A stretch of 64,000 nucleotides of DNA from Lysinibacillus macroides. GTDB taxonomy: Bacteria; Bacillota; Bacilli; Bacillales_A; Planococcaceae. The notes under the pieces were generated by a model that was given only the letters and a program-made list of their open reading frames with translations, searched no databases and was not told the DNA's origin. Location of the stretch: NCBI RefSeq assembly GCF_001281525.1, contig NZ_LGCI01000010.1, forward strand, positions 159,348-223,347, in the 5' to 3' direction. The position numbers were made by a program, and so were the translations under genes. This document shows positions 9,578 through 37,264 of this stretch, piece by piece. Numbering within the stretch: the first letter of the stretch is position 1; every line of letters begins with the position of its first letter.

Positions 9578-9836
9578 CTCTCCTATATAAGTGTTTACTA
9601 AAAATTTTGTATATCTGACGTTATACTTTCACAACAATTAACCTTTGCTCCTGTGGTCATCGCCTTAAATGTACTCTGTGCAACTACACAACAAAATATC
9701 ATCATCCCCATTGAGACTTAGCTATAATTCATTTGTCCATTATGAAAGCCAAATCATTTTTAAATTTACACATGATAGTTTGATTTTTTATTGGCTGAGA
9801 TCCTTTTATCCTAGCCCCGTATTGACTTTCTTCTGC

Positions 9837-10775
9837 TTACGCCGTGACATCCCGTTTTATGAAGGTTGTATAGCTAATCACAAGGAAAAGTATTGCGTAA
9901 ATTGTGAGAATCGTTAATGAAAATGGCATCGTGATTCCTTCAACCATAAAATCTCCTTGCAGATACTGTGTTAAATCTGAATGTGTAAGCCAAATATATT
10001 TTACAATATCATATCTGCTCAGGAACATCACAATCATGCCGCCTGTAAAAGATAAAAACATAGTTAACCCAATGGCTAATGAGCTTGAGCGGAACACAGA
10101 GCCAACTAAAAAGGCAAATAATGTCGACATGACAAAATCTCCGCCAGACAATACATAATAGTAGGCTAAGTCTTCCCATACTGCCTTTTCAACAATTTGA
10201 CCATCGACAATTTCTAATTCTACGCCTGTGCCTATGCCAAATAATAGTAAGCCAACAAACGCACTAACAACAATATTTACAGTTACTAAAAATAGACCAA
10301 ACAAGAAGGTCGTTAGCAATTTTGATGTTAACACTTTCATCCGAGATATTGGGCGCGTTAGTAACATTTTGATCGTACCAGTTGAAAATTCACTCGACAC
10401 AATACTAGCAGCAACAATAACTGTAAAAAGTGTGACAAGTGTTAACAGATTACTTGCGAAGGACATAAAGCTTACAAGACTTGTCTCCCTTTGACTTGGC
10501 ACATCATTGGCTAAACGATATTCTGAAATAGCCGTTTGCTCTTCAAAGTAGACGCTATCTTCCTCCGTTAATTCCCCGCTAGCCAGCATCTCTTTATTCG
10601 CTTGAATGGTTTGCTGCTCTACTTCCTGCCAAGAGCCTTCATCTGCCGACTTTCCATCGTAATATTTCATAATGGCACCTGGAACGACAATCACACAAAT
10701 CAGCATAGCCACCATTGCCCATGTACCTTTTTTATGCCATAACTTCATCCACTCATTTTGAATTAGCTTCAGCAA
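9837..10775 (-). CDS. ABC-2 type exporter, membrane subunit
   Basis: A 312-residue permease with an N-terminal membrane helix (about 18-36), a large extracytoplasmic loop (about 40-105), and five further hydrophobic segments to the C-terminus, as in ABC-2 (NatB/BcrB-like) subunits. The start is TTG at 10773-10775: GGAGGCGG lies five bases before it, and the frame overlaps the ATPase end by 23 bp, implying coupling. It would form the channel of a drug, peptide or sodium exporter with the adjacent ATPase. That ATPase gene is interrupted by a 9.2-kb element, so this permease probably lacks its partner and its original promoter. Confidence 0.9.
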   Translation of the reverse strand: MLKLIQNEWMKLWHKKGTWAMVAMLICVIVVPGAIMKYYDGKSADEGSWQEVEQQTIQANKEMLASGELTEEDSVYFEEQTAISEYRLANDVPSQRETSLVSFMSFASNLLTLVTLFTVIVAASIVSSEFSTGTIKMLLTRPISRMKVLTSKLLTTFLFGLFLVTVNIVVSAFVGLLLFGIGTGVELEIVDGQIVEKAVWEDLAYYYVLSGGDFVMSTLFAFLVGSVFRSSSLAIGLTMFLSFTGGMIVMFLSRYDIVKYIWLTHSDLTQYLQGDFMVEGITMPFSLTILTIYAILFLVISYTTFIKRDVTA

Positions 10776-11556
10776 TTTGTCCGCCTCCAGTCATTTCTAA
10801 GAATTGATCCTCTAATGTTTTTTGATATGGCTGTATCGCAAATAATTGTAGATTTGCTTGGACGAATTGACCAATAAAAGCGGGCACATCCTCTTTACTC
10901 ATTTCCACTACATAGCCCTGCTGCTCTGCCATAAAGTTATAGTTATGCTGCGCCAAATAAGCCGCCACCTGCTCTTTGGGCTGTGCCTCCACATAGTAAA
11001 ATGACGCACTTTCATTACGAATTTCACGAATATCAATCAGCTTCCCATTTTGAATAACCGCTACTCGATCACACATTAACTCAATTTCAGACAATAAGTG
11101 ACTAGAAACAAAGACGGAAACACCATCCTCTGTGGCAATCTTACGAAGGTATGTACGGAATTCACGAATACCCGCAGGATCTAAGCCATTTGTCGGTTCA
11201 TCTAAAATTAAAAATTTTGGCCGATGTAGCAATGCCTGTGCCAATCCAAGTCGTTGACGCATACCAAGTGAATAGGTGGATACCTTTTCATAGATACGAT
11301 TTTCTAGCCCCACCTGCCTAACAACCTCTTGAATACGTTCTTTCGTTATATTTTTATGCATACGCGCAAAATGCAGTAAATTTTTATAGCCTGACATAAA
11401 TTTATACATTTCTGGATTTTCAACAACCACGCCTACTTTGCTAATCGCTTCCTCATACTGCTCCTGTAGTGACAGCCCATCGATAATGACCGTGCCCTCT
11501 GTTGGATGCATTAGCCCTGTCATCATACGAATCGTTGTTGTTTTACCAGCACCATT
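10753..11556 (-). pseudogene. ABC exporter ATPase, 3' part (split in Walker A)
   Basis: The last 266 residues of an ABC ATPase. They start inside the Walker A motif (NGAGKTTTIRMM is read from 11,556 inward) and include the signature YSLGMRQRLGLAQALL, Walker B FLILDEPTNGLDP and the switch histidine in FVSSHLLSEIE. The first 39 codons lie 9.24 kb away at 20,795-20,910 on the same strand. Joining the two gives an uninterrupted frame of about 305 residues through LLGVN-GAGKTTT, the normal size for this family. Between them lies the integrated element. An internal ATG at 11,526 could start a protein without Walker A, which could not bind ATP normally. Confidence 0.93.
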
Positions 11557-11578
11557 AGCCGCATGTGCATATAGACAA
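11555..11578 (+). other. Element end (att site), left
   Basis: Core TT at 11,555-11,556, then the arm AGCCGCATGTGCATATAGACAA. On the minus strand this is TTGTCTATAT..ATGCGGCTAA, joined directly to ATPase codons for NGAGK. Confidence 0.8.
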
Positions 11579-11651
11579 CCCTTTGAAACCCTTGATACAC
11601 AAGGCTTTATAAAAATCTAAAGACAATTAAACACATCTATAATCACACCTA

Positions 11652-11693
11652 AAACGTCATTTGAACGGTATTTTACCGACAGATGGCGTTTTT
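11652..11693 (+). terminator. Hairpin with T-tail inside the element's left end
   Basis: AAACGTCAT pairs with ATGGCGTTT (one G-U) around an inner CGGTA/TACCG stem, followed by TTTTT. It insulates the element end from the surface-protein gene. The rest of 11,579-12,006 holds no gene. A TATACT -10-like box is seen at 11,959-11,964, 43 bp before the next gene. Confidence 0.6.
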
Positions 11694-12006
11694 AAGTGGT
11701 CTATTTATTTTCTTTGCCCAAACAAAATGAATAGGCGTAGATTGTTCTGAGAAATCATGAATTTGAAGCACAAATAATAGAATGGGTGACTGACTATTTC
11801 GTTTTGCCTGACACAGAGATAACGAACTTTCCGTTTTTCCTTTTTAATAACTACCCTATTATTTTATTTTGAGAACAGTCTTGTATGTATTGAGCTAAGA
11901 TAATCACCCTTTTTTAGATTAATTTTTATTGTTTAACCTAATTTTAACCTTCGCTCTGTATACTTTATCCACGTGACAACAAAATCAATCGAAAGGAGCC
12001 ACACAC

Positions 12007-14733
12007 ATGCAGCGAAAAACAAAGCCAACCCCCGTTCTGCTAGCGATAGTTGTCTTGTTCATGCAAACGCTATTTGGGAGTCTACCAGCAATGGCGATAG
12101 ATGAGAATAATGCAATAAGCTCTATCGTCACACAAATGCCAACGACTTCCGCAGATAGTGCAGCCATCACACAACAGACAACGACAGCGGATAGTGCGGT
12201 GATTTATGTGAAACAAGGCACAAGTGGCAATGGCACAAGCTGGACAAATGCCTTTGGCGATTTACAATCAGCACTTGAAGAAGCATCCACTAAATTAACA
12301 GCTGTAGAAATTTGGCTAGCGCAAGGGACGTATACACCAACGAAAGAAGTTGGCGCAACAGGTGCTCGCTATGCTACCTTCCAAATGCAAAATAATGTCG
12401 CGATTTACGGAGGATTTAATGGCACAGAAACCACTGTTACAGAACGAGATTGGAAGAATCATAAAACGATTTTAAGTGGGGATATTGATAATACCCCAAC
12501 GGATAATACAGGAAATGCTTATCATGTCTTTTGTCATCCAGATGGCTTGAATTTAAATGCTACAGCGATTTTAGATGGTGTGACCATTACAGGAGGAAAT
12601 GCTAATTCTAGTGTAGGTGGTGGCATGTTCAATGCTAAGAGTAGCCCCACTCTAACAAATGTGACGTTTGATAGCAATACTGCATTTTCTGGAGGCGGCA
12701 TGTACAATAATGTTAGTAGTAGCCCCACTCTAACAAATGTGACGTTTGATAGCAATACTGCAAGTTCTGAAGGAGGAGGCATGTTCAATAAAAATAGTAG
12801 CCCCGCTCTAACAAATGTGACGTTTGATAGTAATACTGCACATTATGGTGGTGGCATGTACAATGATAGTAGTAGACCCCCTCTCACGAATGTGACGTTT
12901 GATAGTAATACTGCACGTTTTGGTGGCAGCATGTACAATTATGATAGTAGCCCCTCTCTCACGAATGTGACGTTTGATAGCAATACCGCATCATCTCATG
13001 GAGGGGGCATGTACAATAGTGTTAGTAGTAGCCCCATCCTAACAAATGTCACAATGAGTGGCAATAAAGGCACAAACGCTATATATGGTGGCAGTGCAAA
13101 CAGTAAAATTCAAAATAGTATTATCGTAGGTAATGATGGCAACTCAGTACTTACTTACTATAGTGGTACGATTGAAAATAGCTTATTGGATGTAAAGGAA
13201 GGTGGGAAAGTTCTAGCTAAGTTCCATCAGTCAATAGCAGATATACAACCAGACACGTATACACCAGAAGCTATCTTTATTGACCCAAGTCAGCGAAATT
13301 ACCAATTACGAGCAGGGTCGCCAGCGATTAATAAAGGAAACGATGCGCTCAATACACAATCGACTGACCTTTTAGGCAATCCACGTAGGCAAGGTAGTTT
13401 CATAGATTTAGGGGCATATGAGTCAGAGTTTGCGTACCATGTGATGTACGAAAGAAATGGCGCAATAGGTGATACACCCGTGGATAACATGACTTATAAA
13501 CAAGGCGGTACTGTAACCGTACAAAATCGTGGCAACTTAGCAAGAACAGGTTTTACATTTACAGGCTGGAATACACAAGCAGATGGTCAAGGACAGGACT
13601 ATGCTGAAAATGCCTCTTTCACAATGCGCGCACACAATCAGACATTCTATGCCCAGTGGGCAGCGAACACCTACCCTGTAACCTTTGAATCAAATGGTGG
13701 GAGTACCATCACAGCGCAACAAGTACCATACAATACACAGGCAAGTGAACCCACGCCCCCAAGCAAACAAGGGCATACATTTGTTGGGTGGTATAAGGAT
13801 GCCGCATTGACACAGGCATGGCATTTTACGACAGATGTTGTGACAGAAGCTATCACGTTGTATGCGAAGTGGACAGCGAACCCACCCGCAACAGGTGGAG
13901 GCAGTCAGCCATCACCGCCACCTGTGTCGACTGATAATGACTACTCGCCACCGAGAAAAGTGACCATCACCTTGCAGACAAATGGAGGAACAATTTTAAA
14001 ACCAATTGAAATCACCTATAACACAAAAATAAGTCATGTACCTAGCCCAACAAGAGCAGGCTATCGCTTTGACGGTTGGTATCAAGATGAAGCACTCACA
14101 AAGCCGTTGACAGAGGAAACGGTTGTGCGAGAAAGTACGCTTTATGCGAAATGGACGGCATTACCTGTGGAAGAGCCGCAGCAGCCAGAAGAACCACAAC
14201 CCTCCAAGCCCATCGTGACATTTCGTGATGTAGAAAGACATTGGGCAAAAGAAATGATTGAGGAATTAACAGCACTCGGCATTATCCAAGGCTATGAGGA
14301 CGGGTCTTTCCGTCCAAACGCACCGATTAGCCGTATGCATGTGGCAGTGTTATTGACGAGAGCCTTTTCACTCGAAACCGTAAGAACCGCTGAGGATTTC
14401 TCAGATGTACCAAAGAACCATCCTTATTATGAGGCAATTGCCATATTACAACAAGCAGGCATTGTAGATGGCTCAAATGGTGCGTTTCATCCAACCGAAA
14501 ATATGACAAGAGCACAATTAGCGAAAGTCCTTGTGGGCGTACTAGGGCTAACACCACAAGGCACAAGTTCATTTAAAGATGTAGATAGCCAACATTGGAG
14601 TGCAGGCTATATTGCGGTGTTAGAGCGTGAAGGTATTGCATTAGGCGATAATGGCAATTTCCGCCTAAATGAACCTGTTACAAGAGCGCAGTTTGTTGCT
14701 TTTTTATATCGGATTATGCAAATGGAAAGATAA
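12007..14733 (+). CDS. SLH-anchored surface protein with beta-helix and InlB-type repeats
   Basis: A 908-residue secreted protein carried by the element. The start follows GAAAGGAGCC. A signal peptide (about 1-30, cleavage near AMA-IDE) is followed by a right-handed beta-helix region (about 60-390) built on the repeat LTNVTFDSNTA with Gly-rich spacers. Three InlB B-type (Listeria-Bacteroides) repeats follow, each ending YAQW or YAKW (about 480-550, 556-625, 660-720). A Pro/Glu-rich hinge and three SLH modules (about 738-908; FRDVERHWAKEMIEEL, FSDVPKNHPYYEAI, FKDVDSQHWSAGYI) attach it to the cell-wall polymer under the S-layer. The layout suggests adhesion or carbohydrate contact at the surface; the ligand is unknown. 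A strong terminator follows. Confidence 0.92.
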   Translation: MQRKTKPTPVLLAIVVLFMQTLFGSLPAMAIDENNAISSIVTQMPTTSADSAAITQQTTTADSAVIYVKQGTSGNGTSWTNAFGDLQSALEEASTKLTAVEIWLAQGTYTPTKEVGATGARYATFQMQNNVAIYGGFNGTETTVTERDWKNHKTILSGDIDNTPTDNTGNAYHVFCHPDGLNLNATAILDGVTITGGNANSSVGGGMFNAKSSPTLTNVTFDSNTAFSGGGMYNNVSSSPTLTNVTFDSNTASSEGGGMFNKNSSPALTNVTFDSNTAHYGGGMYNDSSRPPLTNVTFDSNTARFGGSMYNYDSSPSLTNVTFDSNTASSHGGGMYNSVSSSPILTNVTMSGNKGTNAIYGGSANSKIQNSIIVGNDGNSVLTYYSGTIENSLLDVKEGGKVLAKFHQSIADIQPDTYTPEAIFIDPSQRNYQLRAGSPAINKGNDALNTQSTDLLGNPRRQGSFIDLGAYESEFAYHVMYERNGAIGDTPVDNMTYKQGGTVTVQNRGNLARTGFTFTGWNTQADGQGQDYAENASFTMRAHNQTFYAQWAANTYPVTFESNGGSTITAQQVPYNTQASEPTPPSKQGHTFVGWYKDAALTQAWHFTTDVVTEAITLYAKWTANPPATGGGSQPSPPPVSTDNDYSPPRKVTITLQTNGGTILKPIEITYNTKISHVPSPTRAGYRFDGWYQDEALTKPLTEETVVRESTLYAKWTALPVEEPQQPEEPQPSKPIVTFRDVERHWAKEMIEELTALGIIQGYEDGSFRPNAPISRMHVAVLLTRAFSLETVRTAEDFSDVPKNHPYYEAIAILQQAGIVDGSNGAFHPTENMTRAQLAKVLVGVLGLTPQGTSSFKDVDSQHWSAGYIAVLEREGIALGDNGNFRLNEPVTRAQFVAFLYRIMQMER
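12640..13060 (+). repeat. Tandem coding repeats of 72-81 bp
   Basis: Six consecutive units share the core AATGTGACGTTTGATAGYAA, encoding LTNVTFDSNTA five times and LTNVTMSGNKG once. The spacers vary in length and sequence (AFSGGGMYN, ASSEGGGMFN, HYGGGMYN, RFGGSMYN, SSHGGGMYN). The near-identity at DNA level suggests recent copy-number change. Confidence 0.85.
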
Positions 14734-14810
14734 TTATTTTATTAAAAAACCTGAACTATTATCGTCACATGTTCAAGTGATGTGATGGTATAAATAGGTA
14801 AATCAGCAAG

Positions 14811-14857
14811 AACAGCACATTGTGGTCAGCGAAGCGAACAGACCACAATGTGCTGTT
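14811..14857 (+). terminator. Terminator of the surface-protein gene
   Basis: A 17-bp perfect stem (AACAGCACATTGTGGTC and its complement) with a 13-nt loop and TTTT at its end. A second compact hairpin, GGGCAGGG-CTTG-CCCTGCCC, follows at 14,865-14,885. Confidence 0.9.
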
Positions 14858-14893
14858 TTCTGCTGGGCAGGGCTTGCCCTGCCCCAGTGTCAG

Positions 14894-14917
14894 CCCCTCG
14901 TATCTAACAGGGGGGTA
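14894..14917 (+). other. Tn916/ICEBs1-like oriT nick region
   Basis: The segment CCCCTCGTATCTAACAGGGG followed by GGTACAAATACAAC closely resembles the inverted-repeat nick region of MOB_T elements. There, C- and G-runs flank TAACA and the relaxase (Orf20 of Tn916, NicK of ICEBs1) cuts next to the G-run; the GTATCTAACAGG core matches the Tn916 form as I remember it. GC-rich hairpins lie just upstream. No relaxase gene remains in the element, so it could be mobilised only in trans. The rest of 14,734-15,471 has a 12-bp hairpin (AGATGTCAACTA, about 14,990-15,022) and a RadC remnant, but no intact gene. Confidence 0.7.
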
Positions 14918-15169
14918 CAAATACAACAAAAAACAGTTCCTGACAACTGCTCACGCTAGATGGCGCAAGGATTTTGGAGGTATAAAGCAGATGTCAACTA
15001 TACCTCATTTAGTTGACATCTTTGAATATCTATGAATAAATATACATGATATCGAAAATGAAAGGAAAAGCAACTTGCATACGATGCTTTGCAAAATGAA
15101 CAAGTGCCATATTTCCACTTGTTAGGCATTTTCAATCAAGTCAACAGATTGTTTATTTGTCTATTAAAA

Positions 15170-15380
15170 ATAGCCTTTTTCTCTTAGTGAGGTAAATTGA
15201 TTACTTGTTACGATTAAATGTCGATTAATTCCACACCCAGTATTTCACCTGCTTGTTGTAAACGTTTTGTTACCCTAATATCTTCTGGGCTTGACGTACA
15301 ATTAGCACTCACATGGTTATGTGCCACGATGATGGATGCCCCATTTTACATAATCGCTGTTTTAAAAACTTCTTTCATTT
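15170..15380 (-). pseudogene. RadC/JAB-domain remnant, copy 1
   Basis: About 200 bp that closely match the 3' half of the RadC-like fragment at 16,652-17,104. Shared stretches encode AHNHVSANCTSSPED and RVTKRLQQAGEI-like sequence, but here frameshifts and substitutions (for example a missing base near 15,222) break the frame. It begins and ends abruptly inside the coding sequence. A second, more decayed copy this close suggests a duplication within the element. Confidence 0.75.
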
Positions 15381-15471
15381 TTCTCAATTTTTGAAAATTA
15401 TGCAGTAAATATCTTTAATAATTGACGATAATATTCATAGAAGAAGATATGAATATCTCAAGAAAGGAAGT

Positions 15472-16029
15472 ATGATAACATTGAATGTAAATTCTCTTTC
15501 TACAGAAAATATACTTTTCACACAAAAACTCCTTCAAGAATTGTCTGAAAACAAAAAATTAAATTTATCAGAAGAACAAAAAACTGCTTTCAAAAATGTA
15601 TTAACAGATACTCTTTTTAATAGTTCAAATATAAAAAACTTATCTGATATACAAAAACAGTTGTTATTAAAAGAACCTAAGGTATCAAATATATTAGACT
15701 TGTACACTGAGAATGGTTTTCTAAATCTATTTGAAACTAAATTAGATAAGGACAGTAATTTATCCACTGTACAGAAGCAACTAATAAATAGTATTGGTTT
15801 AACAAGTGAAGGTTCTATCTCGTCCTCAACTAACACTCTTATTGATGCTATAACAAATTCTACATTGAAACAAAATAAAGTAACGGATAAGACACAAGTT
15901 GGAAACAACAACGCTGTTAAAGCTAAGGCAAAATTTTCATATCAGCAACAAATCCCGATAAGCATACTTACAAATATGGGAGGTATGGCTTCCAGAATCG
16001 AACAAATTAGAACTAATTTCTTTGCATAG
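15472..16029 (+). CDS. Hypothetical protein in the element
   Basis: A 185-residue protein I do not recognise. It is Asn/Ser/Lys-rich and predicted mostly helical, with no signal peptide, membrane segment or cysteine. A motif-like stretch DIQKQLLLKEPKVSNIL is partly echoed later by TVQKQLINSIG. The upstream AAAGGAAG lies very close to ATG 15,472 and nine bases before TTG 15,481, so the start may be the latter. It lies between the two RadC remnants. Its composition is more AT-rich than the chromosomal genes around the element. Confidence 0.6.
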   Translation: MITLNVNSLSTENILFTQKLLQELSENKKLNLSEEQKTAFKNVLTDTLFNSSNIKNLSDIQKQLLLKEPKVSNILDLYTENGFLNLFETKLDKDSNLSTVQKQLINSIGLTSEGSISSSTNTLIDAITNSTLKQNKVTDKTQVGNNNAVKAKAKFSYQQQIPISILTNMGGMASRIEQIRTNFFA

Positions 16030-16139
16030 TACTTATCCTCTTTGTCTTTGAAGAATCAGAAATTTAACTATCTTCTTCTACTTAAAGTGGCAGTATAACA
16101 TCGCCCTTTAAAACTTAATACTCTATTTAAGGTCTTGGC

Positions 16140-16291
16140 ACACACTTCTCAATCCGTTTTGTCAACAATCTGGACAGCAAGTACCTGTGTGGGTAACAGT
16201 CAAATATTTAGATGAAATCACAAAAGCAACCCAGCTTTCACAATATGAATTAACCTTAGAAAAAGATGCAAATTGGATGATTGTGAAATAA
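16140..16291 (+). pseudogene. TcpC-like transfer protein, C-terminal fragment
   Basis: A plus-strand frame ends VPVWVTVKYLDEITKATQ..YELTLEKDANWMIVK and stops at 16,291. This pattern resembles the C-terminal NTF2-like domain of TcpC/Orf13 conjugation proteins of Tn916-type elements. No start or upstream part is present, so it is a remnant. The assignment rests on short motif similarity. Confidence 0.45.
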
Positions 16292-16406
16292 ATACATTTG
16301 GTTACATCATTTATGTTGTAATGTGATTCACTAAAACACCTAACAAGCACTATCATTGTACTTGTTAGGTGTTTACAATTTTTCTTCAATGAAATACAGA
16401 TATTCA

Positions 16407-16589
16407 TTATTTATCTTGCGTTTTTGGCACATATTTATTTAGATATCTAGCACCATGATAAGCGGCTAATTCTATATTATTTACTTTTTCAGCAGTATCA
16501 AAAATTTTTTGTATATGTTTGACGTTTTGTTCATCAATCACGATATTGCCATCCTTATCCCTTTTATAACCTAATGGTAAATTATTCAT
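16407..16589 (-). CDS. Small protein resembling a recombinase-domain segment
   Basis: A 60-residue frame with a good ribosome site (AAAAGGAGATAGAGCC before ATG). Its first half, LPLGYKRDKDGNIVIDEQNV, looks like the start of the PF07508 'recombinase' domain of large serine recombinases. The second half is not similar. It could be a short fragment with a chance start or a genuine small protein. Three hundred bases of flanking sequence hold only RadC and TcpC remnants. Confidence 0.4.
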   Translation of the reverse strand: MNNLPLGYKRDKDGNIVIDEQNVKHIQKIFDTAEKVNNIELAAYHGARYLNKYVPKTQDK

Positions 16590-16651
16590 GGCTCTATCTC
16601 CTTTTCATTTATTTTTATTAGTTCAATTGTAAATGATTCCTTATTTGCATA

Positions 16652-17104
16652 CTAGAAATAACCTCTTTCTTTTAGCGAGGTAAATTTGTTGCTTGTTACG
16701 ATTAAATGGTCGATTAATTCCACACTCAGTATTTCACCTGCTTGTTGTAAACGTTTTGTTACCCTAATATCTTCTGGGCTTGACGTACAATTAGCACTCA
16801 CATGGTTATGTGCCACGAGGATAGATGCCGCATTTTGCATAATCACTATTTTAAAGACTTCTCTTGGTGATGTTAGGTTCATATCCAATGTTCCAATATG
16901 ACAACAATTTAAAAATAATAGCTTGTTTTGAGTGGATAGACAAGCAGCTAATAATATTTTCCTATCCTCATTATCAATGTATTTTATCGCAATACTTGCA
17001 AAATCTTCTGGACTTCTGATTTGGTACTCGTTTAAATGTTCTGTAAGATATTTCTTTAGTAACTTGCCTCTTTCTGCCCTTAATCGAATAATTTCATAGA
17101 TAGG
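16652..17104 (-). pseudogene. RadC-like JAB-domain protein, 5'-truncated (copy 2)
   Basis: About 150 residues of a mobile-element RadC-like protein. It begins IYEIIRLRAERGKLL right after an in-frame TAA at 17,105-17,107, so the N-terminus is missing. The body includes CCHIGTLDMNLTSPREVFK, the JAMM metal motif HNHVSANCTSSPED and a C-terminal DHLIVTSNKFTSLKERGYF. The family is common on plasmids and ICEs; its biochemical role is unclear. An ATG-started inner part (78 residues) would lack the conserved N-terminal half. Confidence 0.8.
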
Positions 17105-17228
17105 TTAAATGTTTTTTCCTCATTTACCTTAAAAAATAACCTTATTATTTACATTTAAGAAAAATAATTGTTGAAGGTTATGAAGGGAAACCACTGACAC
17201 CTTTGCAATAGTGAAGGGAGGTGAATGC

Positions 17229-17510
17229 ATGGAACGTATACGTACCAAGTGGCAAGTGTGTTGTACGTTTAATAGTTTCTGTAAGTGAATATTGAAGAAT
17301 GAAGTTGTCGATATCTATTACCAAAGGCGTAAATAGTAATCACAAGAAACAGCCTATTCTGATCTCACACTACAAAAAAATCAACTTTATATGCTAGACA
17401 ACTATGACTATAAAAAAACTTTATTAGAATACATACCTCTAATTAATAAAGATTTATTAAAATATATTGTTGAAAAATCACGGTTTCAGTCGTATTTTGT
17501 CGGTAAATAA
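17229..17510 (+). pseudogene. ICE-type sigma-70-like factor, broken by stops
   Basis: The frame starts at an ATG behind GGGAGGTGAATGC and reads MERIRTKWQVCCTFNSFCK, stop, ILKNEVVDIYYQRRK, two stops, then YSDLTLQKNQLYMLDNYDY to a final stop at 17,510. This order matches small sigma-70-like regulators (RIRTKWQ..FCK.VL.NE) carried by conjugative transposons. Three in-frame stops make it a pseudogene. Just upstream, VEGYEGKPLTPLQ ends another lost gene; the same start, GTTGAAGGTTATGAAGG, recurs at 19,018. Confidence 0.65.
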
Positions 17511-17604
17511 AAACTAATTTACTATTTATTTTTTTGGATAATAATGTATTATATGTATTAAGGTATTATAAAATTGCCTTAAAAATACAAAAGGAGACAT
17601 AATT

Positions 17605-17970
17605 ATGAAAAAAGTAACAGCAATCTTGTCAGCATTATTTGCCGTATTTATTGTATTTGGGATGATGGAGAAAGCATCAGCATCTGAGTTAGACCAAGAA
17701 TTAAAGGAAGATTTGCCTTCTAATTTTTTTACAGAAACTTCAATTATTGATGAACATGAACATGAATATGAACACGAACATGATACTTTTGCACATGATA
17801 GTGTAATTAAAAGTGAACAAATTACACCTTTTGTTGTGTGTAACCATGTTGGTACTCTAAAACAAACAAAATATATTGGCATTCATAGCAAATGTGGAGG
17901 ACCTTTATACTATGTATATTGTAAGCCATGTGGTAAATTTACAGGTAAAACCATCTGTCTATGTCCTTAA
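17605..17970 (+). CDS. Small secreted His/Glu- and Cys-rich protein
   Basis: A 121-residue protein behind AAAGGAGACATAATT. A clear Sec signal peptide (MKKVTAILSALFAVFIVFG..ASA, cut near residue 27) is followed by an acidic region with HEHEYEHEHDTFAH (about residues 52-65). A C-terminal domain has six cysteines: PFVVCNHVG, SKCGG, YVYCKPCGK and TICLCP. The His cluster suggests metal binding; the cysteines could bind metal or form disulfides, as in some bacteriocins or small secreted zinc proteins. I do not recognise a family. It is one of the few intact genes in the element and ends at a near-perfect palindrome. Confidence 0.75.
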   Translation: MKKVTAILSALFAVFIVFGMMEKASASELDQELKEDLPSNFFTETSIIDEHEHEYEHEHDTFAHDSVIKSEQITPFVVCNHVGTLKQTKYIGIHSKCGGPLYYVYCKPCGKFTGKTICLCP

Positions 17971-18014
17971 TAGATTCTCATTACGTATAGTATAGCTACT
18001 TGCACTACACTTTT

Positions 18015-18050
18015 ACAATTGGCACACTATAATTATAGTGTGTCAATTGT
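18015..18050. other. 36-bp near-perfect palindrome
   Basis: ACAATTGGCACACTATAA followed by its reverse complement, with one mismatched pair and no loop. It lies 45 bp after the secreted-protein gene and lacks a T-run, so it may be a weak terminator or a protein-binding site. The rest of 17,971-18,317 shows no other gene. Confidence 0.6.
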
Positions 18051-18317
18051 ACATTTCCTTCCCCCTGACAAAACAAGTGTGTATTTCAATCTTTCCGTAT
18101 GTTTGTTATTAAAAGTTTTAAAAAAATAAGAGTTATTGTATTGATATTTTGAAAAAAATATTGTAGTTTCACATGAAATATATCAAATTCTCTTCAATGG
18201 TACGGAATGTGAGGTGGATTGTAGTGACGAGTTACATAAAGCTATGGGGAAGTTATAATGAATCTAATGTCAATCGTTCTTAGTTGTACCATGAAAAAAT
18301 TTATTCGGAGGATTTAT

Positions 18318-18713
18318 ATGAACATTAATAATCTTAATACATTAAATACTTTTACAAATAACAAAATGAATAATGTTGTAGTCACTGTTCCAATAAAGAC
18401 TTCTTTATTTGCAACTGTATTTAATGATTTTTTGAAAGAAAAATCATTAATAATAACTAATTCTAACGATTTGAATTCTTCACTGAAATTACATCTTTCG
18501 GAGGATAAAGTTAATGCAACAGTTGAGCTTGAAGACAAGTATTGTTCACTATGTGGTTCTATGATTGAAGATGATGGTAGTTGTCCACTATGTATTGTAC
18601 CTATGTTTATAACTGGTAACAGCAACCAAACATTTCAAAATCAACATGCTTCACAAGCAAACAATCATTATGCGGAATTTGGAAATAGAATACACAAGCC
18701 TTTTAGAAAGTAA
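18318..18713 (+). CDS. Small zinc-ribbon-like protein in the element
   Basis: The start at 18,318 follows TTCGGAGGATTTAT, an excellent ribosome site, giving 131 residues; an earlier TTG-type extension has no support. The N-terminal half is Asn-rich. The middle carries YCSLCGSMIEDDGSCPLC, two CxxC pairs spaced as in zinc ribbons. The C-terminus is Asn/Gln/His-rich. There is no signal peptide or membrane helix, so it is probably cytoplasmic and nucleic-acid- or protein-binding. Function unknown. Confidence 0.65.
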   Translation: MNINNLNTLNTFTNNKMNNVVVTVPIKTSLFATVFNDFLKEKSLIITNSNDLNSSLKLHLSEDKVNATVELEDKYCSLCGSMIEDDGSCPLCIVPMFITGNSNQTFQNQHASQANNHYAEFGNRIHKPFRK

Positions 18714-19438
18714 AAAAGTGATATTACACATTTTGGGATTTATAGAAAAATTAAACAATTTATTTAAATAGGTGCTTCTTTGTGTCATTATTTAGTTCTA
18801 ATCAATGTCTGTATTATTAATTACTTCAGCAAGCTTTATGTTTGGGGTATATACATTATAAAGTAATAAAAAAGCTATCTCAATTGTCTATCAAATTGGC
18901 TTTTGATGATGGTCTCTTTTATTATAAAAATATACAAGTAGAATATGATAAATTAGATTTTTTATTTCGAATTCCAAAAATTCTGCGCTATAATTTTGGC
19001 ATTTTATAAAAAAATCTGTTGAAGGTTATGAAGGAGAAAATCAATGACACCCTTGGAAATGGTCATTATTCTCTTTCATTTAAAATATTTATACTATCTT
19101 GTTCTTTGACAAAGAAAGCACGAAAGAGAACATCGTGCAGTATATCAAAAAATCAGATAAGTTTTATGAATAGTCAGCTACCAAACAAGTACGCCACGAC
19201 TCTCGCATGAGAATGAGTGAAATCTACTTTGTCTAACACAATCGTGGTAGATTTGTGAGCCATCACCTATCCATAAGATAATGATACTCCCCTACAGTCA
19301 CTGTCCGAGCGTTCAAAGCATCACAGGCTATGAGTAGGGCTGGAAGCAATACTTGCAGAGGTTGAAATACCTGTGGAGCTGTACCAACAGCCATCTGATT
19401 TTCAATTGCTTACAATGTACATGTAAAGAGGAAAGAAC
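18714..19438 (+). other. Gene-poor remnant stretch of the element
   Basis: No intact gene. At 19,018 the sequence GTTGAAGGTTATGAAGG..GACACCCTTG repeats the start of the 17.17-kb remnant. At about 19,342-19,428 a frame reads LEAILAEVEIPVELYQQPSDFQ and stops 10 bp before the next gene, apparently the end of a lost gene. The remaining frames are full of stops. Confidence 0.5.
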
Positions 19439-19696
19439 ATGGGAGCGTTAAAAGGGCTTGCAGAAGCAAAACACAAAGCGAAAGAAACTCGACCAACACA
19501 AGACCTTATAGACATACGACATATCCAAATTCAGCATGACTTACCTGCATTGGAGCGATTAGAAAAATATCTTCAAGACATCCAAAAACCTTACCAATTC
19601 TTGTGTGGGAATGTGACAGTTTATATTCGTTTTTTAGAGGATGGAAACGACTTATCTATGCAATTAAAACGCTACTTTTCAAGCTATAATCACTGA
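19439..19696 (+). CDS. Small protein upstream of the serine recombinase
   Basis: An 85-residue protein starting ten bases after AGAGGAAAG. It is charged, with a helical middle (LPALERLEKYLQDIQ) and a hydrophobic end (VTVYIRFLEDGNDL). It lies 55 bp before the recombinase gene in the same direction. Its position fits an accessory gene of the recombinase module, for example a directionality factor, but I recognise no family. It appears intact although the recombinase is not. Confidence 0.6.
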   Translation: MGALKGLAEAKHKAKETRPTQDLIDIRHIQIQHDLPALERLEKYLQDIQKPYQFLCGNVTVYIRFLEDGNDLSMQLKRYFSSYNH

Positions 19697-19751
19697 AATG
19701 ATAGGTTACACATGATATAATAAAGATGTGATTATGGAGGATTGGAGGAAC

Positions 19752-20741
19752 ATGGTACGAGTTAGAAAAAAGTCAAAAGTTCAGCAACCACGTCAAAAAA
19801 TTTGGTATGTATATGATGGCATGTGGGCTTTAGGTACAATTCATCGTATCTTAACCAATGAAAAGTACATCGGTACAAGGGCAACAACGAGTAATTAGTT
19901 ATAAAATTCATGAAAATTACACCACCAGAAGAAGAATGGTTTGTAGTGGAAAACACGCATGAACCAATTATTGAAAAATCTCTCTTTGAACAAGCACAAA
20001 ATTTACAAAAGCGAGATACTCGTACTGCACCATCTGAAAAGAAAGTCCACCTTTTTTCAGGTTTCCTTCGTTGTCCAGATTGCGGAATGGGCATGACAAG
20101 GAAATGCTACCGCAGACAAACAAAGTCTGGATGGAAAGAATATGCCTACTATATTTGTTCTACTTATGCAGTGAAACATAGAGGGAAATGTACTCGACAT
20201 AGTATGGGTATAGAGGACATCACAGAAGCCGTATTACGGGCGATACAAGCGCAAATCGCACTTGTAGATGGATATGACCACCCTTATCAAACATCCTATT
20301 GTGCGGACAAAATCGAAACAATTAGAACAGTTCTACAAAGCGAAACAACAAGAGTTAGAAAAAATAACAGCCGTCACAGATAATCTGTATATGGATTGGA
20401 AAACTGGCGATATTACCAAAGCTGACTATTTGCGAATGAAAGCAAAATTTGAGCAGAAAGTGAATGAAGTGACACAGGTGATTACCAACCTCGAAACAGA
20501 ACTGGCGACTGTTCAAAAAGGTATTGGTGTGAACCATCCCTATCTCCAAACATTTTTAAAGCATAAAAATATTCAAGCACTTGACCGAGGTTTGTTGGTT
20601 GAGCTGATTGATACAATTTATATTCATGAGAACAAAGAAATGACAATCCAATTTAATTTTGCAGACCAACATCGACATATGTTGGAATTTATTCAACAAA
20701 ACAAGAAGCCAATCATGACAATGAAAAACCAAGTCATGTGA
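19752..20741 (+). pseudogene. Large serine recombinase, catalytic domain deleted and frameshifted
   Basis: The start follows GGAGGATTGGAGGAAC and reads MVRVRKKSKVQQPRQKIW, typical of the N-terminus of ICE serine recombinases. The catalytic resolvase domain that should follow is absent. The frame jumps at once to WALGTIHRILTNEKYIGTRA, the end of the recombinase domain, then stops (19,897). A shifted frame continues EEEWFVVENTHEPIIEKSLF and the zinc beta-ribbon RCPDCGMGMTRKCYR..YYICSTY. A second frameshift near 20,300-20,350 leads to the C-terminal coiled coil and ends at 20,741. With no catalytic serine and two frameshifts it cannot be active. It would have integrated and excised the element through the att ends next to it. 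Confidence 0.88.
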
Positions 20742-20772
20742 TTCGCTGACTTGGTTTTCCTTCTTCGCAAAT

Positions 20773-20796
20773 TTGTCTATATATAGATGCGCCATT
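20773..20796 (+). other. Element end (att site), right
   Basis: The arm TTGTCTATATATAGATGCGC leads to CATT with core TT at 20,795-20,796, then ATPase codons for LLGVN (minus strand). It is the inverted counterpart of the arm at 11,557-11,578; the first ten bases from each end are identical. Confidence 0.8.
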
Positions 20797-20910
20797 AACA
20801 CCAAGGAGAGCAAAAATTTCCCCTTGCTGAACAGCTAATGACAATGGGTGCACAGCCGTTTTCGTGCTATAGATTTTACCTAATCCCTCTACATCAATGG
20901 CAATTGTCAT
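20795..20910 (-). pseudogene. ABC exporter ATPase, 5' part
   Basis: The first 39 codons of the ATPase, MTIAIDVEGLGKIYSTKTAV..EIFALLGVN, with ribosome site AGAGGGGATG. The ATG overlaps the stop of the upstream regulator by the ATGA pattern. After LLGVN the frame enters the integrated element and stops within about 20 codons. The rest of the gene resumes at 11,556. Confidence 0.92.
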
Positions 20911-21344
20911 TCAGCATCCCCTCTTGTATGCTTATTGACCGTCAGTGCTTGATCGAAAAATTTTTGCGTATAGCTCTCTGGTACAATGGCTAGCCCTCGC
21001 TCCTCATCCCCTACAATAATCAGTGAATCGCCTACCTCTATTTTAAATAAATCTCTTGCCTTTTTCGGAATAACGATTTGCCCTCTCTCCCCTACAACTG
21101 CAACACCGAATAAATGCTTGCCCTTCGGTGGAATCCCTAGCCCCATATCACTTTGATAATTGACTAAGTCATCTAATGTGACCTGATATAATCGGGCTAA
21201 TGCTATGCAGCTTTCGATATCAGGCGTTGATTCACCCTTCTCCCATTTCGCCACAGCCTGACGCGATACATTGATTTTTTCTGCTACGTCCTCTTGCGTA
21301 TAGTGATGGTGCTTTCTTAATTCCTTTAAATTCATACATATCAT
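20907..21344 (-). CDS. XRE-AbrB hybrid transcriptional regulator
   Basis: A 145-residue regulator that joins an XRE helix-turn-helix (ELRKHHHYTQEDVAEKINVSRQAVAKWEKGE, residues about 6-37) to an AbrB/SpoVT swapped-hairpin domain (GVAVVGERGQIVIPKKARDLFKI, about 80-125). The start at 21,344 follows AAGGAG with nine-base spacing; a longer frame upstream has no ribosome site. It is translationally coupled (ATGA) to the ABC ATPase, so it most likely controlled that exporter operon, which is now cut by the element. Regulators of this build typically sit at the head of ABC-2 exporter operons. Confidence 0.88.
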   Translation of the reverse strand: MICMNLKELRKHHHYTQEDVAEKINVSRQAVAKWEKGESTPDIESCIALARLYQVTLDDLVNYQSDMGLGIPPKGKHLFGVAVVGERGQIVIPKKARDLFKIEVGDSLIIVGDEERGLAIVPESYTQKFFDQALTVNKHTRGDAE

Positions 21345-21472
21345 CTTTTTCATCTCCTTAAACTTATTATTACGAATGGCTGCTAGATCGTCTATCAACA
21401 AACCATAACATCCATGTTAAGATTCATTGCTTTTTCGCTTTATATACTTTGACTTTCCGAAAATAGAAAAAT

Positions 21473-22990: not shown

Positions 22991-23235
22991 ATTATCATAT
23001 AAACTTCCCAAGGATGTCAACACCTTCAATCCTCTTACTTTCTAGCGGAAACAGTAAGAGGATCATTTTTATTTGTTCATTCACAAATCATTGATGTAAT
23101 TAAGCGTGTAAAAATGGTTGGACTAGTGCAATCGACTGGAAATATTCAGTGTCCAAATATAATTATTTTCTCTTTTAAGAATAGATAGCATATTTTTATA
23201 AACAAATACCGAGAATGTGTGAATCGTCTATCTCG

Positions 23236-23365
23236 ATTTTCAATAAGTCTCTTGCCTTTTTCGGAATAACATTTTACCCCCTCTCACCTACAACCGCAAT
23301 ACCGAAAATTACTTGCCCTTCGGCGAAATCCCTAGCTCTATATTAACTCTTTATAAAGAGTGCCC
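23236..23365 (-). pseudogene. Remnant of an XRE-AbrB regulator (AbrB half)
   Basis: About 130 bp closely resembling 21,040-21,180 of the intact XRE-AbrB gene (shared AATAAGTCTCTTGCCTTTTT, CTTGCCCTTCGG, AATCCCTAGC). Here there are substitutions and a lost base, so no frame remains. It appears to be the tail of a paralogue. The rest of 23,030-23,598 shows no other feature. Confidence 0.65.
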
Positions 23366-24877: not shown

Positions 24878-25270
24878 ATAAGAACTTTCATACTCCTTGC
24901 AAGTTGTCTGTTGATCCTAGCTGCCTGTGCTTCTCAAAATATCGACAAAGAACATCTTGCATATATAGAAAATTTAGGCTGGACGATTCAATCATTTGAT
25001 TCAACTGAGCAAGTAACACTAGCATTAGCACCTGAAACGATCGCAAACTACGAAGAAGCTACTATCACTTTTATAGAAGAGTATATCGGGAAAGAAGTAA
25101 CTATAACAAGCTATACATTAAAGGAAAAAGATCCTGAAAACGATCAGCTCCTTGTATACATCTATGAGCATCAAGGAGAAATCATTGGCACTATCGGAAA
25201 AATACAGAATGCTACACCAGGTATATTTAACCCTGCCAATAAAGCAGGGCTAGAAATACAATTTTTTTAA
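24878..25270 (+). CDS. Small lipoprotein with a missing canonical start codon
   Basis: The frame reads RTFILLASCLLILAACASQN, a lipoprotein signal with lipobox LAAC, then about 110 residues including HLAYIENLGWTIQSF and KDPENDQLLVYIYEHQGEIIGTIG. This resembles DUF4830-type proteins. AGGAGG at 24,865-24,870 is spaced perfectly for the codon at 24,878-24,880, but that codon is ATA. The next usable codon, TTG at 24,911, would cut the signal sequence in half. Either ATA is used or the gene has lost its start. The flanking genes on both sides are broken, which favours decay. Confidence 0.6.
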   Translation: MRTFILLASCLLILAACASQNIDKEHLAYIENLGWTIQSFDSTEQVTLALAPETIANYEEATITFIEEYIGKEVTITSYTLKEKDPENDQLLVYIYEHQGEIIGTIGKIQNATPGIFNPANKAGLEIQFF

Positions 25271-27296: not shown

Positions 27297-27390
27297 GTGA
27301 CTAAGCGTTCGCAGTCCATTTCTGTTTTAAACAGTCCTCAAGATGAGGGTATCTCATTACCCCTCATAGGGCAGAACATCTAGTTCCCTA
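27262..27390 (-). ncRNA. Probable omega RNA (guide scaffold) at the tnpB 3' end
   Basis: TnpB proteins use an RNA that overlaps the end of tnpB and runs to the element's right end, with the guide taken from flanking DNA. This stretch holds two hairpins, CCTCA-TCT-TGAGG and CCCATTG..CTGTGGG, and ends where the host sequence begins. The identity follows from element type and position. Confidence 0.5.
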
Positions 27391-28464
27391 TGCTGATTGA
27401 CTTTTACCATCAACCACAGGTGCAAAGCGAATATTCATAGCACCAATTATATCTCTATGCTTCTCGAATCCACATTTACACTTGTATTTTCTATCTTGTG
27501 CCTTGTTCTTCTCTGAACATTTCGGGCATGTTTGACTTGTATATGCAGGATTTACGTATTCAACTTTAATTCCTTCTAACCTTGCTTTGTATTCAATAAA
27601 TTGAGATAGTCGATAGAATGACCATGTATGCAAATTCTTTTCGTTTTTACGACTGGTTCTTGTCGTCTGTCTAATATTCGCTAATTGTTCTAAACGAATG
27701 ACAGAAATTTTATTCTCTTTCGCAAAATCAACAATTGCACGACTCGCTTTATGGTCTTGGTCTTGCATCCAACGTTGTTCCTTGTTGTTCAACTTACAAA
27801 TAGCAGTTACCTTTTTCTTTTCCCCTAATTCTTTACGAACTGAACGGAATTTTCTTTTCTTGAATTTGTTTTGTCTGCCATTACCAAAAAATCGTACCTT
27901 CTCATCGTCTGTTACAGCAACAGCAGGTACTTTTAGTCCTAAATCAACACCCATTACTCTTACTCCTGGTTTTTGAACAGTAGGAATGGTCACAGAAATT
28001 TGTGCTATCCATTTATCCGACTTTTTTGTGATACGCAGTGTGCCTAACTTATGTTTAAGCAAATCAAGATTTCGGTGACCTTTATCAACCAATAAAGCAC
28101 GAATAGGCGTTTTCTTGGTTTTGCCGTCAGTCATGATAGGCAAGGAGATATGAGTGGAATCAAAAGAGTAGTTTTGATTGTTCCAGATGCACATAGGCTT
28201 CTTTAGAACTGGAACTGTTTCGAATTTTGTTTTTTTCGCCTTCCTGAAAACACTTTTTGCCTCTTTAATTGCTTGGTTTTTTACTGCACTTGGCAAAGAT
28301 ACATGAAGGTTTTTACTTGTTTTCTTAGTGCTTTTCTTTTCTTTTACCATTTCAAATACAAGGTCATTGATTGTTGAAATGTATATTTTACTCATTTCAG
28401 TTAAAGTCAAAGCCTGTTCTTTTGTAGGCAACAATTTTATTTTGACAGTGATTGGTTGCGACAT
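27388..28464 (-). CDS. tnpB: TnpB RNA-guided endonuclease
   Basis: A full-length 358-residue TnpB. RuvC-type catalytic residues are present: D in VMGVDLGLKVPAVA, E in ISVIRLEQL and D in KHRDIIGAMNI. The zinc ribbon CPKCSEKNKAQDRKYKCKC lies between the last two. TnpB cuts DNA guided by the omega RNA and helps the element persist after transposition. It starts 4 bp after tnpA ends. No frameshift is seen, so both proteins may be active. Confidence 0.95.
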   Translation of the reverse strand: MSQPITVKIKLLPTKEQALTLTEMSKIYISTINDLVFEMVKEKKSTKKTSKNLHVSLPSAVKNQAIKEAKSVFRKAKKTKFETVPVLKKPMCIWNNQNYSFDSTHISLPIMTDGKTKKTPIRALLVDKGHRNLDLLKHKLGTLRITKKSDKWIAQISVTIPTVQKPGVRVMGVDLGLKVPAVAVTDDEKVRFFGNGRQNKFKKRKFRSVRKELGEKKKVTAICKLNNKEQRWMQDQDHKASRAIVDFAKENKISVIRLEQLANIRQTTRTSRKNEKNLHTWSFYRLSQFIEYKARLEGIKVEYVNPAYTSQTCPKCSEKNKAQDRKYKCKCGFEKHRDIIGAMNIRFAPVVDGKSQSA

Positions 28465-28468
28465 GATT

Positions 28469-28873
28469 TCACCCCCTTGTTTTCTGTTGCTCTACATAGC
28501 GTTTGATGGTTTGACTCGATACATTTCCAGCGGTAGAAACAAAATAAGAACGTGTCCATAAACTTGGCAAGTGTTGTAGGTGAGGAAATTCTTCACGCAA
28601 CTGTTTAGATGTCACTCCTTTGATTTTTGCCATGATGTTTGCAGGACTTAATGTAGGTAGTGCATTTAGAAATAGGTGGGCATGGTCTTTGTCACATTCT
28701 AAGGCTACCACTTTTATTTTTAAAGATTCACATATTTCGTGTACCATTTCTTTAAATCTCTGTTCTATTTTGTCATCAAGAAATATCTTTCTTCTGTATC
28801 GAGGGCAAAACACAAAATGATAATTAATCAATGATACGGTTGTATTTGTTCTTCTGTATTCTTCCATAACCAA
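28469..28873 (-). CDS. tnpA: IS200/IS605 Y1 transposase
   Basis: A 134-residue HUH transposase with the metal-binding pair in CDKDHAHLFLNA and the catalytic tyrosine in TIKRYVEQQ. It cuts and rejoins single-stranded element DNA at subterminal hairpins. Length and motifs are complete. The second methionine (MEEYRRTNTT) is an equally good start. Confidence 0.95.
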   Translation of the reverse strand: MVMEEYRRTNTTVSLINYHFVFCPRYRRKIFLDDKIEQRFKEMVHEICESLKIKVVALECDKDHAHLFLNALPTLSPANIMAKIKGVTSKQLREEFPHLQHLPSLWTRSYFVSTAGNVSSQTIKRYVEQQKTRG

Positions 28874-35713: not shown

Positions 35714-37264
35714 TTACACCATATGCCCTACTACCTTTACTTTTAAGCGTGTGGCATTTTCTGGATGATAGGCAAGTGGCGTTTCCTCTACCTCTACAAG
35801 CTCAATTGACTTCTCTATTGCACCTGCTAAGACAGCTTGTTTAACGGCTTTGCCTTGGGCATCCTTTAAAGAATCCTCACGAGACTCTCTTGCGTAAATA
35901 TAAATTTGCTCGTATTGACCGCTAATTTGAGCAATGGATGCACCAATGGCATTAGCTACACCGCCATATTCCGATTTTACAATATGGGAAACGCCTCGAA
36001 TTTTTTCAGGCACAATCACAGCGCCACCGCCGACTAACACCAGTGACACATCCTCTGAGGAGGTTTTCATTTTATCAATAGCCTGCTCCAGTAAAGCAGC
36101 AATTTCCTTTTGTACATCCTTCGCAAAGGCTTCATCAATATGTGCTACTAATTGAGGATCACCAACGTCTGCCAAGCCTAGACGTACAGCTATATCTGTT
36201 GTTGTTAATGTGGAGCCGCCGAAAACAAGTGCCTCCTCGTTAATGCGATAGCCAACACTATCTGGTCCTACCGTAATGTTATCATTCTGTACACGTACAA
36301 TACTGCCACCACCAAGACCAACCGAAATAATATCAGGCATTCTAAAGTTTGTACGAATATCCCCTACCTCCACGGCAACAGAGGACTCTCGTGGAAAGCC
36401 ATCCTGTAATACACCAATATCGGACGTTGTGCCACCAACATCTAACACCATTGTATTTTGAATTTGGGATAAATACGACGCACCACGTATACTATTTGTT
36501 GGACCACAGGCAATTGTTAAAATCGGGAATTGCTTGGCATAATCAATGGACATTAATGTGCCATCATTTTGACAGAGGTAGACCTCTACATTTGAAATTC
36601 CCTCCGCTTGTAGTGCTTGCACAAAGCCCTGTGTCGTTGTATCAATTACCTTACACAAAGCAGCATTTAAAATTGTTGCATTTTCACGCTCAATTAAGCC
36701 AACAGAGCCAATTAATGAAGAGCAGGAAATAGGAAAGTCCTTACCATATACCTCCTGTATCCATTGGCGAACCTGTAATTCTTGGTCATTTTTAATAGAA
36801 GAAAAGACACCCACAATCGCAATTGACTCTACTTGATCGTGCCATTCTGCTAATAGCTTTGTAATTTCCTCCTTATCAAGTCCACTTAATAATTGACCAT
36901 CATATTCATAGCCACCATGTGCAATCGCATACTGCCCTGATAATGTATCAATCATATCCTTTGGCCATGCTGTATAAGGAAGGACAGAGGCCGTTGCTGG
37001 ATAGCCCAGTCGAATTACACCAACCTTTGCTAACTTTTTACGCTCTACAATCGCATTTGTACATTGCGTTGTGCCTAGCATGGCATGGGTAATTTTTGTT
37101 TTATCAATATTTGCACCCCCTAGCAGCTCCTGCAATGCTTGCTCAATCCCTGATTTGATATCTAAGCTTGTTGGTGATTTTACACTGTAAATTAACTGAC
37201 TATCACGGTCTAAAAGGATAGCATCCGTATTTGTTCCACCTACATCAATTCCAATTTTATACAT
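35714..37264 (-). CDS. Hydantoinase/oxoprolinase-family protein (HyuA-like)
   Basis: A 516-residue ATP-dependent amidohydrolase-type protein. The ASKHA-like phosphate-binding segments YKIGIDVGGTNTDAILLD at the N-terminus and NTMVLDVGGTTSDIGVL (about 270) are clear. Relatives hydrolyse hydantoins, 5-oxoproline or related cyclic amides; this shorter form usually sits with a DUF917 protein, as here. It overlaps DUF917 by eight bases and is the last gene of the operon. The substrate is not evident. Confidence 0.9.
   Translation of the reverse strand: MYKIGIDVGGTNTDAILLDRDSQLIYSVKSPTSLDIKSGIEQALQELLGGANIDKTKITHAMLGTTQCTNAIVERKKLAKVGVIRLGYPATASVLPYTAWPKDMIDTLSGQYAIAHGGYEYDGQLLSGLDKEEITKLLAEWHDQVESIAIVGVFSSIKNDQELQVRQWIQEVYGKDFPISCSSLIGSVGLIERENATILNAALCKVIDTTTQGFVQALQAEGISNVEVYLCQNDGTLMSIDYAKQFPILTIACGPTNSIRGASYLSQIQNTMVLDVGGTTSDIGVLQDGFPRESSVAVEVGDIRTNFRMPDIISVGLGGGSIVRVQNDNITVGPDSVGYRINEEALVFGGSTLTTTDIAVRLGLADVGDPQLVAHIDEAFAKDVQKEIAALLEQAIDKMKTSSEDVSLVLVGGGAVIVPEKIRGVSHIVKSEYGGVANAIGASIAQISGQYEQIYIYARESREDSLKDAQGKAVKQAVLAGAIEKSIELVEVEETPLAYHPENATRLKVKVVGHMV

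Follow-up and report, generated by a model that had tools for sequence, protein, structure and literature searches.

A 9.24-kb insert in the window, as we call the whole 64,000-nucleotide stretch of DNA analysed here (G000:C8:159348-223347, from a genome of 4.87 Mb in 15 contigs), is, judging by its sequence, the decayed remnant of an ICE of the Tn916/ICEBs1 type that encodes a large serine recombinase (LSR). Its two flanks are halves of ABC ATPase genes. Since these halves come from different genes, the element appears not just to have interrupted one gene but to have brought about a gene fusion and a loss of DNA. That the insert was an ICE remnant had already been claimed in a sequence-only reading of this DNA, and the claim was borne out, since both the ends and the inner segments match a Tn916/ICEBs1-type ICE of the same genome (the C1 element).

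The junctions of the insert could be placed to the base, at 11,555/6 and 20,795/6, each within an AATGG of Walker A coding DNA (the complement of 11,552-11,556 and of 20,792-20,796). On the minus strand, an ATPase reading MTIAIDV...FALLGVNGA is followed by element sequence from 20,796 and, at the other end, the element yields to NGAGKTTTIRMM... at 11,556. When 20,600-20,850 was compared with the genome at the DNA level, the C1 match of the recombinase-side end (91%) proved to stop exactly at 20,796; at the opposite end, the C1 match extends 29 bp beyond the core, into conserved Walker A DNA, to 11,527. The LSR-side att junction (20773..20796, minus strand) comprises an arm at 20,773-20,782 and the core, and the other att junction (11552..11578, minus strand) the core and an arm at 11,569-11,578. 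The outer ends of these arms, TTGTCTATAT and ATATAGACAA, lie 23 bases from the AA centre on either side. In a 46-bp site built from both element halves, 34 of the 46 positions were palindromic in the window, compared with 34 in C1, 32 in L081 and 30 in L079, the last two being loci of the same LSR lineage. The window, C1, L079 and L081 also have in common a C/T difference adjoining the core, which an exchange inside AATGG explains. The exchange can thus be located within these five bases, and site symmetry favours their AA as the presumed exchange point. Coordinates, junctions and core therefore agreed with the sequence-only reading, AATGG being present at both ends. Its explanation of the C/T difference by a crossover at the core was likewise confirmed by the same pattern at the other three loci, and its arithmetic of about 305 codons for the joined frame holds (41 + 264).

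The C1 element, located elsewhere in the same genome, measures ~25 kb (about 601,190-626,440). Its LSR is intact (577 aa) and carries the domains of a large serine recombinase, namely Resolvase (PF00239), Recombinase (PF07508) and Zn_ribbon_recom (PF13408), together with a DUF4368 match at the C end that lies below the Pfam cut-off. Pfam also identified a conjugation module of the Tn916/ICEBs1 superfamily, consisting of an FtsK_SpoIIIE coupling protein, TcpE, a VirB4-like AAA_10 protein, Lysozyme_like+NLPC_P60, TcpC (TpcC), a Rep_trans relaxase and ArdA, genes that we take to belong together as one superfamily. C1 is, by its gene content, a predicted ICE of the Tn916/ICEBs1 type. It is inserted at the Walker A codons of another ABC ATPase (...GFLGPNGA/, a slash marking the insertion point here and below). 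The uninterrupted orthologue of this target in G015 aligns to one flank at 87.5% and to the other at 88.6%, the two alignments overlapping by 11 bp at the core, and the best match of both halves is L126 of G015 (95% and 90%), showing that the flanks of C1 come from one gene.

The remnant and C1 have both ends in common, and the inner segments are ~80-95% identical between them. The conjugation module of C1 had no DNA match within the window, and for this reason the insert is called a remnant and not an ICE. The end opposite the recombinase (11557..11700) is part of a 174-bp match (11527-11700, 93.7% to C1 626298-626471). It is followed by an intact plus-strand frame of 908 aa (12007..14733) for a surface protein with beta-helix, Listeria-Bacteroides repeat and SLH domains (Pfam), which has no counterpart in the C1 ICE by DNA comparison and is apparently cargo of the otherwise decayed element. 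Further inside lie an ICE segment at 14786..15023 (87% to C1 623357-623592), a first radC fragment (15147..15373, minus strand) that is 90% identical to a second one (16635..16862, minus strand), segment X at 15386..16100 (plus strand, with an ORF at 15472-16029; 95% to C1 612970-613681), segment Y at 16142..16383 (88% to C1 613675-613920) and a segment at 17152..17407 (80% to C1 604132-604392) whose start recurs at 18993-19058. No match to radC was found in the ten related ICE loci examined. A DUF6870 gene (19439..19696, plus strand; Pfam) adjoins the recombinase. The LSR remnant itself (19752..20741, plus strand) retains its first residues, after which ~700 bp are gone near 19805-19813, taking with them the catalytic resolvase domain as well as part of the one that follows; the Recombinase, Zn-ribbon and C-terminal pieces remain in frameshifted form (19910-20383 and 20268-20741). 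The recombinase of the remnant is dead. Because the arms agree, we predict that the intact C1 recombinase might act on the remnant in trans. Outside the remnant, window positions 24914-25138 are 75% identical to C1 611578-611805, which lies inside the C1 ICE.

Comparisons of the flanks were performed separately for each half. On the LSR side, the minus strand carries the 5′ half of an ABC ATPase gene (gene A, 20797..20910, ending ...FALLGVN(GA); 80% to the G065 ATPase in translation) and the regulator of operon A (20907..21401, minus strand), with HTH_3 and AbrB/MazE-like domains (Pfam) and 78% identity to G065. On the other side are the 3′ half of ABC ATPase gene B (10753..11554, minus strand, from (N)GAGKTTTIRMM to the stop) and the ABC-2 permease of operon B (9837..10775, minus strand; Pfam; syntenic in G014 and G031). 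Among 120 other genomes, the operon A regulator has a single relative whose identity exceeds 62%, that of G065, where it precedes an intact ATPase and permease. A degenerate second operon A regulator was also seen at 23211-23334 of the window; it shows 68% identity over 37 residues, a stop included, and its DNA is 74.6% identical to G065 over 122 bp. Gene A of G065 is 80% identical to the window over the 5′ half (41 residues) and 28% over the 3′ half. Similarly, the 3′ halves of more distant operon A kin (L003-L006) are 60-63% identical to that of G065 and 29-32% to that of the window. The 3′ half of gene B, for its part, has orthologues at 72-88% in 25 of the 31 other genomes of the genus, and all 25 carry a different 5′ half (e.g. 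TEPIVQLQNLSKTIRGKQLIQQLNIDLYPGQITGFLGPNGA), 24-32% identical to that of the window. When the halves were ranked against 118 P-loop reading frames from the available loci, some of which represent the same gene twice, the window halves picked different genes and the C1 halves picked the same gene. The L079 halves had the same top two homologues in swapped order (L123 at 85% and L064 at 76% for the 5′ half; L064 at 77% and L123 at 59% for the 3′ half), a result compatible with both flanks deriving from one gene. For L081, the best matches reached 41-43% and did not tie the two halves to one gene. On these matches, the 305-codon frame is a chimera of genes A and B.

Synteny with G014 and G031 was then used to delimit the missing DNA. 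Both genomes match the window at 9835-11,556 and resume from 35,714, the start of the first gene of conserved synteny beyond the rearranged stretch (35714..37264, minus strand). The intervening DNA measures 3.2 kb in G014 and 7.4 kb in G031 versus 24 kb in the window (11,557-35,713). In G014 and G031 this gap holds the 5′ half of B, a cluster of an ABC ATPase, a GntR-like regulator and a permease (by eye) and a few other genes; the 5′ half of B and the genes upstream of B are missing from the window. Elsewhere in the genome, neither the 5′ half of B (best-scoring match 43%) nor a whole gene A partner (best match to the G065 ATPase 38%) was found at the expected identity, and a search for the permease upstream of B in G014, which is weak as it was run without a positive control, gave no match. 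The absence of the 3′ half of A and the 5′ half of B is an observation, unlike the mechanism behind it. We infer that this variable gap also contained operon A, which would have preceded B with the same strand orientation; a deletion between co-oriented elements would then be the simplest account. Two window frames, 27388-28873 and 29803-31133, resemble transposase genes by eye and are presumably of the IS200/IS605 and IS3 types.

Altogether, we consider it probable that two co-oriented Walker A-targeting ICEs, one residing in A and the other in B, recombined, deleted the intervening DNA and left a mosaic remnant. The ancestor would have carried one ICE copy in gene A, itself part of an upstream accessory segment, and a second copy in gene B. 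Recombination between the copies could have been homologous or could have been catalysed by the recombinase with the inner attR(A) and attL(B) as substrates; by the latter route, the chromosomal DNA between the copies would pop out and leave two ICEs in tandem. Shrinkage would have followed. The DNA removed would comprise the 3′ half of A with its permease, the genes upstream of B and the 5′ half of B. The residue would be the mosaic 9.24 kb, devoid of conjugation genes and of the LSR catalytic domain, between the 5′ half of A and the 3′ half of B, and both exporters would be left without a whole ATPase. Precise excision is predicted to generate an in-frame A/B chimeric ATPase. A two-copy mosaic is suggested, and only suggested, by a step back in the segment order (15,386-16,100 corresponds to C1 613,681-612,970, and then 16,142-16,383 to C1 613,920-613,675), by the radC pair at 90% and by the uneven identity to C1, which is 95% in segment X and 84% at the LSR end. 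The step back and the radC pair could also be local duplications in one element. A second step back, involving segments at 17,152 and 18,993 that each resemble C1 at 604.4 kb, may be due to a repeat within C1 itself. By eye, no attP of the kind lying between two tandem copies was seen at 16,029-16,160.

Other histories could lead to the same arrangement. The sequence-only reading had considered both halves as one otherwise intact ABC ATPase interrupted by one ICE, and they do join in one 305-codon frame at the expected core. However, all Walker A sites share one codon phase, so a join across them is always in frame and frame restoration provides no evidence for a single gene. The identities point instead to two genes, the 5′ half being 80% identical to gene A of G065 against 24-32% to the gene B orthologues, and the 3′ half 73-88% identical to the latter against 28% to the former. 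We regard this history as very improbable. The uninterrupted empty site predicted from it found no support either, as the ATPases of relatives, with one genome compared per species, lack this junction for both halves.

An unlikely course of events, in our judgement, is that A and B had already become fused by recombination over their short stretch of conserved Walker A DNA, losing the intervening sequence, before a single ICE was inserted. The DNA of gene A (G065) and gene B (G014) agrees at most positions of GAATGGNGCNGGNAAAAC, a fusion within this stretch would be in frame, and one subsequent insertion would yield the same flanks as the deletion. Nevertheless, the fusion point would have to fall no more than a few bases from the att core, and the step back of the ICE segments would be left unexplained. 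Import of DNA would account for the rarity of operon A, whose regulator has its only close relative in G065, and for the LSR-side end being less like C1 than segment X is. A donor carrying the regulator, the 5′ half of A and one ICE end would then have recombined into an ICE resident in B and replaced the upstream side of B. Such an event would require a second crossover upstream, and no donor was found; we hold it to be quite unlikely. We rejected an exchange of the window element with the C1 ICE, whether by reciprocal translocation or by inversion, since the gene halves of C1 belong together and the 3′ half of A and the 5′ half of B are absent elsewhere at the expected identity.

We examined the insertions of the LSR lineage, defined as the window remnant and the LSRs at least 72% identical to that of C1, a small sample of 6 loci. 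All 6 insertions (window, C1, G008/L073, G013, which is L079, L080 and L081) were located at the same codons of ABC ATPases, G-x-N-G-A/G-K, which is the insertion pattern of the proposed Walker A-targeting lineage. Identity to the C1 LSR was 86% in G008 (only residues 67-577 matched), 90% in G013 (Lysinibacillus piscis KH24), 74% in Ornithinibacillus gellani and 75% in Bacillus sp. IITD106 (longest open stretch 421 aa). The other junctions of the lineage read FLGHNGA/, FLGTNGA/, GLLGPNGA/ and GLIGPNGA/. AATGG was present at 6/6 recombinase-side junctions and at 4/4 opposite-side junctions read, the flank opposite the recombinase having been read at four of the six loci (the window, C1, L079 and L081). 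From the comparison of these six loci, the attB of this TndX-like LSR is a short Walker A-encoding string, GG-NNN-N/AATGG-NGC-NGG-NAA (G-x-N-G-A-G-K), and the genome therefore offers dozens of candidate targets, always in one codon phase. In agreement, GGNNNNAATGGNGCNGGNAA occurs at 29 further sites in this genome (0 in the reversed control), all 29 in frame within P-loop reading frames of more than 150 codons, and among them are likely orthologues of the G008 and G013 targets (L099 and L123). The proposal that the attachment site is P-loop coding sequence consequently stands as regards a target string common to many genes, but not as regards the predicted empty site, the halves being two genes. 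That the core strictly favours AAT rather than AAC could not be shown, the genome having 29 AAT and 5 AAC sites.

LSR searches at the family, order and class levels (261, 261 and 398 genomes; E limits 1e-100, 1e-90 and 1e-100) recovered the LSR in three genomes only (G000, G013 and G008), and the search at order level covered as many genomes as that at family level and returned identical matches. In viral contigs, the single LSR protein as query gave no match and a four-sequence LSR alignment gave 58 loci; the 3′ flanks of 18 of these 58 mostly contained a further recombinase frame after the match and no recognisable target, and were uninformative on targets. No P-loop was recognised in the flanks of the plasmid/phage loci L093-L095.

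The present case resembles Tn5397 of Clostridioides difficile, a member of the Tn916 family, in combining Tn916-like conjugation genes with an LSR, in its short central dinucleotide and in its insertion in DNA for a conserved protein motif (PMC4430133). According to that source, TndX of Tn5397 prefers Fic domain-encoding DNA with a central GA in its targets, a targeting there called intriguing; in contrast, the targets described here are ABC Walker A codons, with an inferred AA, candidate targets are many per genome and the flanks come from two genes. The C1 LSR is ~32% identical to TndX-annotated plasmid records. A multi-targeting LSR clade (DUF4368) includes TndX-like enzymes, and close relatives within it integrate into divergent genes (PMC10083194); the C1 LSR shares the DUF4368 match at its C end, though below the Pfam cut-off. 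That clade is exemplified in the main text by an AT-rich TT-core, with further, more complex motifs in the supplement, and the words 'ABC transporter', 'Walker' and 'ATPase' are absent from the main text. CTn2, CTn7 and Tn6103 of C. difficile are likewise integrated elements with LSRs and short direct repeats, and Tn6103/CTn5 is located inside a gene, but Walker A targeting is not seen in the portion of PMC3158075 drawn on here. We recognised no report of such targeting in the literature searched, mostly outside subscription journals. The present case is of the same kind as TndX and the multi-targeting LSRs, with another motif and with two-gene flanks in addition.

These results describe a natural mobile element aimed at a catalytic motif common to many genes rather than at a single gene, with its dozens of candidate sites per genome in a fixed phase. 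Predicted consequences are recurrent exporter loss, deletions with ABC genes at their borders and ATPases that are in-frame chimeras. The results also call for caution, as halves that join in frame across an insertion in a conserved motif are not thereby shown to be one gene, and they make this LSR a candidate with a definable multi-copy target motif. It is conceivable, although we are doubtful, that P-loop-directed ICEs constitute an engine for ABC-transporter shuffling and that the window represents a frozen intermediate. Two insertions followed by recombination, or by crosswise excision (outer attL x attR), would combine a 5′ part from one ATPase gene with a nucleotide-binding domain from a second, and would swap regulators, N-terminal strands and partner permeases. 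Such fusions would always be in frame because all targets share core and codon phase.

Finally, we analysed more distant LSRs, at 51-55% identity. None of the six flanks read (L082, L083, L084, L133, L134 and L135; L136 left out) lay in an ABC gene, which argues against a strict ABC rule: four lay at collagen-like repeats, one at a VapE-like P-loop and one (L133) had no assigned target. Specifically, the L082 and L083 recombinases were inserted in collagen-like Gly-Pro repeats. L134 and L135, whose length and identity are the same as those of L136, adjoin similar repeats in the other reading orientation by eye, and the L083, L134 and L135 recombinases, at 51-54% identity, end at this Gly-Pro repeat DNA. 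For L084 (11500-12000; recombinase 54% identical), the insertion fell in codons for the P-loop of a VapE-like gene (PF05272). What all these targets have in common may be a string of Gly-rich codons, for instance GGN-CCN-ANN-GGN. In L082 (7692-7930, from a Coprocola pullicola MAG), ~70 bp of Gly-Pro repeat separate the recombinase-side end from DNA resembling the opposite ICE end (49 bp, 88% identical to window 11612-11660), which may reflect two insertions in neighbouring collagen-like repeats.
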